Assembly: GCA_003605065.1 (NCBI GenBank)
Contig: QZJM01000006.1
Location: 1 to 39,428, forward strand
DNA: 39,428 nucleotides
Direction: 5' to 3'
From: Dethiobacter sp.
GTDB lineage: Bacteria > Bacillota > Dethiobacteria > DTU022 > UBA8154
A program made the position numbers and the translations under genes. The notes beneath the pieces were generated by a model. It was not told the DNA's origin and searched no databases. It saw nothing but the letters and a program-made list of their open reading frames with translations. Positions 10,236 through 12,043 of this stretch are shown here, piece by piece (the stretch's first letter is position 1; every line of letters starts with the position of its first letter).

Positions 10236-10679
10236 TTGAAACGGCCTTCCTGGGACAGCTATTTTTTGGAGATAGCCTCGGTAATTGCGGGACGGTCAAC
10301 CTGCCTGCGCAGAAAAGTAGGGGCCATTCTGGTTAAAGATAAGCGTTTGCTTACCACGGGTTATAACGGCGCGCCTGCCGGCCTGAAACACTGCCTGGAA
10401 ATAGGCTGCCTGCGCCAGGTAAAGAATATCCCTTCGGGGGAACGCCATGAATTATGCAGGGGGCTGCATGCCGAGCAAAATGCTATTATCCAGGCCGCTT
10501 TACATGGAGTTTCCATTAAGGGCGCAGATCTTTACTGCACCCATCACCCCTGTTCTTTATGTTCTAAAATGCTTATTAATTCCGGAGTAGAAAAGGTGAT
10601 CTTAAAGGAGGGTTATCCCGACGAACTGGCTCAGCAGCTGTTTAAAGAGGCGGAGATACAGGTTGTAACAATTACTTGA
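10236..10679 (+). CDS. comEB: dCMP deaminase (ComEB-type cytidine/deoxycytidylate deaminase)
   Basis: A 147-residue zinc deaminase that converts dCMP to dUMP, supplying dTMP synthesis. The zinc and catalytic residues are in GLHAEQNAI (His78, Glu80) and [13 protein letters not shown] (Cys106, Cys109). The N-terminal [30 protein letters not shown] is the family start. TTG 10236 is preceded by AAGGAGG (about 10219-10225). It closes the tsaC-to-glyA cluster; in many Clostridia dCMP deaminase and upp sit here just before the ATP synthase genes, but upp is missing. No clear terminator follows; the next 344 nt hold a probable structured RNA. Confidence 0.94.
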
Positions 10680-10778
10680 TCCGGTTGTGTATACTAACCA
10701 TCACGGACCCTAGAGGTCACAACAATGGATAAAAATGCGTACTAAAGTATCAAGGCTCTACAGTGCTCTATACTAACT

Positions 10779-10991
10779 CCCCAATGGGGGGTAGCGCTGC
10801 GGGTGGCGTGAATTGTTGGAGTGGGCAAAAGCTCCTGGTGAAGCGAGGGCTGGAGGCGGTCCTGCCGGCATGGACGCCGGCAGCCGGCAGGCGAAAACGG
10901 GATGTGAGCTCTGCCGGGAAGGCCGCCGGAAGCTTGAGATGAGCTATTGAGCTTTCCACGACAACACCTGAACGACACCCCGCACGCTGCC
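10779..10991 (+). ncRNA. Candidate structured noncoding RNA of about 210 nt
   Basis: The 344-nt space between comEB and the flippase gene is free of convincing ORFs and highly self-complementary. A long outer helix can form: 10790-10796 (GGTAGCG) with 10985-10991 (CGCTGCC), 10798-10803 (TGCGGG) with 10979-10984 (CCCGCA), 10804-10805 with 10976-10977, and TGTTG (10814-10818) with CAACA (10962-10966). Inside it, CTGCCGGC (10862-10869) pairs perfectly with GCCGGCAG (10876-10883), and alternatively CCTGCCGG (10861-10868) pairs with CCGGCAGG (10884-10891). A CCCC-AAT-GGGG hairpin (10779-10789) abuts the 5' side. The region is richer in G+C than its flanks. The strand is inferred from the flanking genes; the helix alone does not decide it. 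Size and taxon would fit a raiA-type RNA, but I could not confirm any class. Confidence 0.6.
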
Positions 10992-11023
10992 ACACATTTA
11001 TATCCTTAAAGGAGTTTTTGTCG

Positions 11024-12043
11024 GTGGCGAAGCCTCTTCCTGCCTGGAAAAAAGGGCTGGGAATTTCCCTGGCTTTAAGCATTACAGCAGCGCTTTTTGT
11101 TTTCTTCCGCAACTTTAATGAAGATACCCTGGAAAGCCTGCTGACAGTCAGGGTTGAATACCTCTTAATTGCTGTCTTTATGGTTTTTTTCCTCTGGATT
11201 ATTGAAGGGTTACGCATCAGGCTGCTGGTCAGCACTCTTAGCAACCACAAAAGTATTTCACTTTTTGATGCGATGCAAATTTATTTACTGACCTTTTTTT
11301 TTGCTTCTGTAACACCGCTGGCAGCAGGAGAATGGCCTGCTCATATTTATGCTTTGAACAGGCAGGGGCTTTCCCTGGGAGAATCATCTGCAGTTACGGT
11401 TACGCGTTCTTTTTTAACCAGGTTTCTTTTTACCGTTACAGCCATTTCCTTTTTAATCATTTTCCGGGGCAGGCTGGTTCCTACTTTTCTTAACAGGGTC
11501 TTTTTGTATGCCGTTTTTGTTTCCGTTTTTACCTTACTTGGACTGCTTTTTCTCTTATGGAAACCTATGTTCCTGGAATGGATCCTGCAAAAAATAGGTT
11601 CTCTTGCCGGGGGGAAATATTTATTCGGTAAAAACTCTAAAGGGCAAAAAATATACTGGCGTTTGGGACAGGAATTCCAGGAGTTTCTCCATACCACACG
11701 CGCTCTCAATCGTTTTAAAATAGGAAATCTTATTATTATCAGCCTGTTAACCTTTACCTTTTGGCTTTGTTTTTTTAGTATTGCGCCCGTCATTTTACTC
11801 GGCCTTAACAAACCGGTGCCCTATCTCCAATCTTTAGTCTGGCAAATTGTGATACAGATGATTATTGTTTATATTCCCGTGCCCGGGGGAAGTGGTGTGG
11901 CGGAGTTGAGCCTGGCCAGTTTGTTTGTGTACTTTGTCCCCCCTTCTGTTCTGGGAATATTTGTTATGGTATGGCGTTTTTTTACATATTATATCCTGCT
12001 TTTTTTCGGAGGGTTAATCGCCCTTACCGTCTTGAAACCGTAA
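11024..12043 (+). CDS. Flippase-like integral membrane protein (LPG synthase TM / UPF0104 family)
   Basis: A protein of about 339 residues with roughly eight predicted membrane helices, of the lysylphosphatidylglycerol-synthase transmembrane (AglD/UPF0104) family. Family-like features are the first helix followed by the polar segment RNFNEDTLESLL, WIIEGLRIRLLV, LTFFFASVTPLAAGEWPAHIYAL, and the late VYIPVPGGSGVAELSLASL motif. It lacks the soluble aminoacyltransferase domain of MprF, so it is not a lysyl-PG synthase; lipid or polyprenyl-linked substrate transport is an inference from the family. GTG 11024 is chosen because AAAGGAG (11008-11014) lies 9 nt upstream; TTG 11018 is only 3 nt from it. 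It follows the candidate RNA directly. Confidence 0.85.
   Translation: MAKPLPAWKKGLGISLALSITAALFVFFRNFNEDTLESLLTVRVEYLLIAVFMVFFLWIIEGLRIRLLVSTLSNHKSISLFDAMQIYLLTFFFASVTPLAAGEWPAHIYALNRQGLSLGESSAVTVTRSFLTRFLFTVTAISFLIIFRGRLVPTFLNRVFLYAVFVSVFTLLGLLFLLWKPMFLEWILQKIGSLAGGKYLFGKNSKGQKIYWRLGQEFQEFLHTTRALNRFKIGNLIIISLLTFTFWLCFFSIAPVILLGLNKPVPYLQSLVWQIVIQMIIVYIPVPGGSGVAELSLASLFVYFVPPSVLGIFVMVWRFFTYYILLFFGGLIALTVLKP

Follow-up and report, generated by a model that had tools for sequence, protein, structure and literature searches.

A divergent TwoAYGGAY-like RNA and candidate CsrA decoy encoded by a mobile-looking intergenic repeat of Dethiobacteria

The spacer between comEB and the flippase/V-ATPase genes of Dethiobacter sp. 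(contig QZJM01000006.1) holds one copy of a dispersed, mobile-looking intergenic repeat of roughly 300 nt, and this element encodes a genuine, strand-specific structured RNA fold. Positions below refer to the window, the whole stretch of 39,428 nucleotides that was analysed. We are confident that the element is a mobile repeat containing a divergent TwoAYGGAY-like RNA. The family is multi-copy with defined ends, varies in presence and orientation at one spacer, and displays a covarying fold and a TwoAYGGAY-like architecture; that the RNA is transcribed, binds CsrA and acts as a decoy, and how the repeat moves, are what we infer. The full reading, a divergent TwoAYGGAY-like RNA on a non-autonomous mobile element that also titrates CsrA, is the one we favour, with modest confidence.

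Organization and dispersal of the repeat

On the + strand, the whole copy extends from about 10692 to about 11008, with a left junction between (T)ATACTAA and CC at about 10690-10697 and a right end, CATTTATATCCTTA, at about 11008. The original prediction had given 10740-11000 as the extent of the RNA. This holds for the structured part, but the limits do not stand, as the feature is longer and is closed by ATAAAAATG / CATTTATAT. The 5' block A (TACTAACCRCCACGACCCTGCRGGTCACAACAATGGATGAAAATG, 10692-10737, +) folds into a hairpin, GACC-CTAGA-GGTC (10706-10718), and contains a further ATGGA motif (GGA at 10727-10729). The motif TATACTAAC, which had been singled out as occurring twice, marks the left junction of the element at 10690-10698 (+); for the other occurrence, at 10769, no conserved counterpart was seen in other copies. 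Since the left-junction motif also forms the right end of other copies (CATTTTCATACTAA), tandem copies abut at a single TACTAA.

The copies share one layout: block A, a variable arm, a core some 100 nt long, and the terminal CATTTTCATACTAA. When 31 full copies were aligned by their ends, conservation disappeared to the right of the terminal TACTAA and beyond about 12 nt to the left; their median length is 304 nt, and the window copy measures 317 nt. The left flank is of the TAYTAA type, and no target duplication beyond TACTAA itself was seen in these 31 copies. Block A occurs 38 times in the first loci and more than 90 times in all fetched loci, which partly overlap. In the mini-copies L024 and L028, the core is missing and hardly anything separates block A from the 3' end, suggesting that the core is dispensable for movement. 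A second, REP-like repeat (GGGGACATTCC...GGGGTGTGTCCCC) is nested within element copies L020, L021, L023, L032, and L039, and G003 contains nested arrays (L053, L040, L044-L052) in which the core of a first element is interrupted by a second copy.

With 10670-11020 as query, 19 matches were obtained in the window's own genome and many more in related genomes of its family. The covariance model R1, trained on 37 copies of this family only, the window copy included, has matches in 31 of the 71 genomes of the order: 19 in the window's own genome (G000), 49 in G004, 47 in G003, 21 in G009, 19 in G020, and 18 in G016. Pattern scanning of named genomes yielded at least 80 loci; among the matches listed, nearly all belong to the MAGs DeMMO6_36, all_maxbin.237, and UBA9862. 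L075 and other JAGVAS records (MAG DeMMO6_36, a relative of the same genus) carry the family at high copy. Carriage by phage or plasmid was rejected, as the phage, plasmid, and viral collections searched gave no match.

The original description implied one RNA gene lying between comEB and a flippase; the feature is instead a dispersed repeat inserted there. The comEB-flippase spacer, about 338 nt in the window, is empty and only 20-42 nt long in five genomes of the same family with an identical gene order (G001, G003, G006, G009, and G014), two of which belong to the window's genus. In G004, also of this genus, a family member occupies the spacer in the reversed orientation. This distribution suggests that the spacer may be an insertion-tolerant or preferred site. 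It is filled in opposite orientations in two congeners (L155; window 10680-11018).

A cis-acting leader or riboswitch for the downstream flippase/V-ATPase genes would be in keeping with the window copy, which is co-directional and stops just short of the next gene's ribosome-binding site, but not with the empty spacers of same-family genomes or the reversed copy in G004. Orientation data largely refute it: 25 of the 65 copies with resolved neighbours are co-directional with neighbouring genes, 23 antisense, 10 convergent, and 7 divergent, counts that use simple length-based ORF calls and include some overlapping loci (co-directional versus antisense, p 0.89). None of the 65 lies inside an ORF, and no common class was seen among the genes downstream of the copies. 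Random orientation together with empty spacers in relatives excludes a cis-regulator specific to this locus and fits an inserted intergenic repeat; we regard the leader reading as very unlikely.

A conserved, strand-specific fold

The MFE structure is built on a long outer helix (10790-10991, +), which begins with the pairing of GGTAGCG (10790-10796) with CGCTGCC (10985-10991) and continues in the same register through TGCGGG/CCCGCA and then TGTTG/CAACA, the very helices that had been predicted. For 10740-11000 (+), the MFE is -120 kcal/mol versus -95.7 +/- 4.9 for shuffles (z -5.01), and none of 200 shuffles was as low. The whole element (10696-11008) gives an MFE of -134.2 and a z of -5.41 on the + strand; the - strand, with a z of only -2.35, is far less unusual. 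Extending the fold to these limits adds an outermost closing helix (10727-11005, +), in which the end of block A (GGATAAAAATG) pairs with the 3' end of the element (CATTTATATCC). The consensus of this helix in other copies is ATGAAAATG / CATTTTCAT.

The conserved RNA core (10828-10956, +) matches R1 with 135.5 bits (E 3e-37), the window copy being itself an R1 training sequence. Covariance analysis had been proposed as a check on the original prediction; run on the 37 related copies, it found 31 of 39 pairs compensatory, that is, changed on both sides, with 94% of the cells in the alignment paired. The covariation score of 0.524 compares with 0.255 for shuffles, and slid controls do not exceed 0.10. 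As G-U cells exceed A-C cells (98 versus 26), + is the folded strand. Inverted repeats rich in GC are common, but a fold arising by chance in GC-rich intergenic DNA is refuted: the 37 divergent copies show compensatory changes all along the structure, at a level well beyond that of the shuffled and slid controls. We assign this idea practically no weight. The pairing is thus beyond chance, as had been claimed, on the strength of both the z of -5.0 and the strong covariation. The reported absence of a coding frame is also upheld: copies differ by 1-2 nt indels, and so no ORF is conserved in the element.

Two adjacent hairpins lie within the core. Hairpin 1 (CTGCCGGC-ATGGAC-GCCGGCAG, 10862-10883, +) has a covarying stem and an AYGGAY loop, with GGA at 10872-10874. 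Hairpin 2 (CCGGCAG...CTGCCGG, 10884-10917, +) contains an internal ACGGGATGT, with GGA at 10900-10902; the usual form in other copies is CATGGATGG or ACAGGATGT. Among the 37 copies, the two stems (10862-10869/10876-10883 and 10884-10890/10911-10917) are paired in 96% and 93% of cells, whereas the alternative stem, CCTGCCGG/CCGGCAGG, is paired in only 68%. A conserved switch between alternative stems was rejected on these figures, and the mutually exclusive partners that had been noted do not represent one. The ambiguity arises because the two adjacent hairpins of the window copy happen to share one stem sequence.

Relationship to TwoAYGGAY

No Rfam 15 family matched the window at the gathering score, which agrees with the original description of the RNA as unassigned. 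The raiA motif, suggested there as a possible class, is alike in size, but it was not among the chance-level matches obtained for 10600-11100 at a relaxed threshold of E <= 10, and its model matched none of 20 sibling loci at E <= 0.5. An identity with raiA or another overlooked Rfam family is thereby refuted for Rfam 15, and we consider it extremely improbable.

As judged from model searches, the nearest known relative of the element RNA is TwoAYGGAY (RF01731, clan CL00106), a 168-position model with a gathering cut-off of 43 bits. One sibling copy matches this model over the core, L166 and L167 align with its full length (1-168), and the best of 60 relatives scores 40.0 bits over the full model (1-168). 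The window copy gives no match at E <= 10 and none of the 60 relatives reaches the cut-off, so the element is called a divergent TwoAYGGAY relative rather than filed as a member. In the reverse direction, R1 retrieves Rfam-grade TwoAYGGAY RNAs of other families at full length (best E 1.9e-14), with 17 matches at E < 0.001 on TwoAYGGAY loci, some of which overlap, and a single off-target match (E 0.16) in 68 kb. The element family also has the consensus TwoAYGGAY topology, an outer helix plus two adjacent hairpins. The loops read AUGGAC (hairpin 1) and CGGGAU (hairpin 2) in the window, and siblings often have AUGGAY in both.

RF01731 is present in 50 of 399 genomes of the phylum and is often multi-copy, its copies per genome being lower bounds, since scoring stopped at six candidates for each genome, a number that many genomes attain. 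True TwoAYGGAY RNAs of other families keep the core and have different outer ends. Such copies (L212-L251) are dispersed repeats as well, and their complementary ends reach well past the Rfam model. At L228, L229, L231, L243, and part of L230 (G188, G324), Rfam-grade TwoAYGGAY lies between near-identical terminator-like hairpins, e.g. ACCCGCAGCAACTARCTGCGGGTTTTTTG. These duplicated hairpins could represent a long target duplication or, alternatively, an sRNA between dual terminators. The published passages on TwoAYGGAY that we drew on make no mention of a mobile, high-copy nature. We tentatively suggest that TwoAYGGAY-class RNAs of Bacillota may be cargo of mobile repeats, CsrA decoys that multiply by transposition, with the copy number of a selfish element setting the dose.

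A candidate decoy for CsrA

The element RNA probably acts as a CsrA decoy. In the SELEX consensus for CsrA, RUACARGGAUGU, the GGA sits in a loop with AC/GU closure (PMC7652899). Both loops of the element fit this consensus, including the A-C/G-U closure for loop 1. Loop 1 takes the forms ACAUGGAYGU, ACAGGAYGU, or near variants, typically CAUGGAYG or ACAGGAYGU, and GGA is retained in hairpin 1 of all 37 copies and in hairpin 2 of 36 of the 37. Two features count against the CsrA reading: the second motif of the window is ACGGGATGT rather than AYGGAY, and SELEX favoured shorter stems. A passage of the 2014 RMfam paper proposes TwoAYGGAY as a CsrA-binding sRNA in Clostridia (PMC4333381).

In the mechanism that we propose, the body of a non-autonomous mobile repeat of ~300 nt encodes a divergent TwoAYGGAY relative, whose paired ANGGA hairpins, upon transcription, would dock one CsrA dimer. 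The copies would jointly titrate CsrA in the manner of CsrB or RsmZ of Gammaproteobacteria, and transposition, with the mobilising enzyme supplied in trans, would alter copy number and hence the dose of the sponge. Against this mechanism, a consensus scan around the window copy found no sigma-70 promoter-like or Rho-independent terminator-like site.

csrA was found in the window's genome (G000), G003, G009, and others. Within the order, it is present in 7 of 9 genomes with at least 5 copies versus 7 of the 22 that have no match (p 0.04 by Fisher's test, kinship ignored); outside the order, 20 of 21 multi-copy TwoAYGGAY genomes have it, a count with no phylum-wide base rate alongside. The main point against the decoy reading comes from two draft genomes, G004 (49 copies, 89% complete) and G016 (18 copies, 87% complete), in neither of which csrA was found. 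Nor was it found in several low-copy genomes (89-96% complete), and in some low-copy genomes of this kind the best copies keep both GGA loops. The idea that loss of GGA tracks the absence of csrA was rejected (3 of 9 versus 2 of 12, p 0.61).

Copies with intact loops thus persist in genomes without detected csrA, as would be expected of a purely selfish non-autonomous element, whose fold and GGA loops would be recognised on ssDNA or RNA by a transposase or another mobility protein and would have no role with CsrA. The hairpins of IS200/IS605-type elements are recognised by their transposase, and Y1 transposases are present in the window's genome. The defined ends, with a left flank of TACTAA type and TACTAA on the right, the tandem abutment, the left subterminal hairpin, and the lack of an evident target duplication in this family are likewise consistent with such an element. 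The core-less mini-copies bear both ways, since their existence suits a selfish repeat but suggests that movement does not need the core. Furthermore, searches revealed no gene for a transposase, TnpB, or reverse transcriptase bounded by these ends, the loops are close to the CsrA consensus, and TwoAYGGAY elsewhere retains the core yet has other outer ends. We consider a purely selfish element the less likely reading, and retain the CsrA decoy as the preferred reading.

Several candidate mobilisers were searched for. Y1-transposase searches of 8 genomes gave 23 matches, and the 12 loci read from these contain neither block A nor the core. An autonomous copy enclosing a long ORF was rejected, as none occurs among the loci examined, and a group II intron derivative was rejected because the reverse-transcriptase loci examined have intron domains of their own and no block A or core. 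A TnpB-guide RNA was also rejected: there is no TnpB in the genome, and for IscB/IsrB, covered at the RNA level, the HEARO model is unmatched in the window (E <= 10).

Comparison with known systems

CsrB and RsmZ titrate CsrA in Gammaproteobacteria, and RNA antagonists of CsrA are known by experiment mainly there. In Bacillota, FliW is a protein antagonist of CsrA, and to our knowledge RNA decoy control of CsrA is unproven in this phylum. The prediction of RNA antagonists of CsrA in Bacillota dates from 2014, in a passage of PMC4333381. If the decoy reading is true, there would be a direct connection between a selfish repeat and the global regulator CsrA; the element family offers dozens of natural RNA variants per genome for comparisons of CsrA binding.

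The element resembles CsrB/CsrC/RsmX/Y/Z in having more than one ANGGA-presenting hairpin per RNA (consensus from PMC7652899). It differs in that each copy has two conserved sites, whereas CsrB-type RNAs have many, and in that it has no known promoter, sits on mobile repeats in Bacillota, and is so far a predicted CsrA ligand. The RrA/B/F sRNAs of E. coli are CsrA-interacting RNAs located between two terminators (PMC8144298), and some true TwoAYGGAY loci also lie between duplicated terminator hairpins; the sequences, however, are unrelated, and the window copy lacks such terminators. With non-autonomous IS200/IS605-like elements and REPIN/BIME, the element shares the character of a short dispersed intergenic repeat with a subterminal hairpin, a preferred flank, and random orientation. 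Unlike in these, a large conserved RNA fold makes up the body of the element, and no Y1 partner with matching ends was found. TwoAYGGAY itself differs from the element family in that the latter falls below 43 bits, has a distinct 5' part (block A) and TACTAA ends, reaches up to 49 copies, and, in hairpin 2 of the window, has CGGGAU where TwoAYGGAY has AYGGAY. The two share an outer helix, an internal-loop region, a junction, and a pair of neighbouring hairpins whose (A)NGGA lies within the loop or close to it; TwoAYGGAY, too, is multi-copy in many Bacillota genomes.
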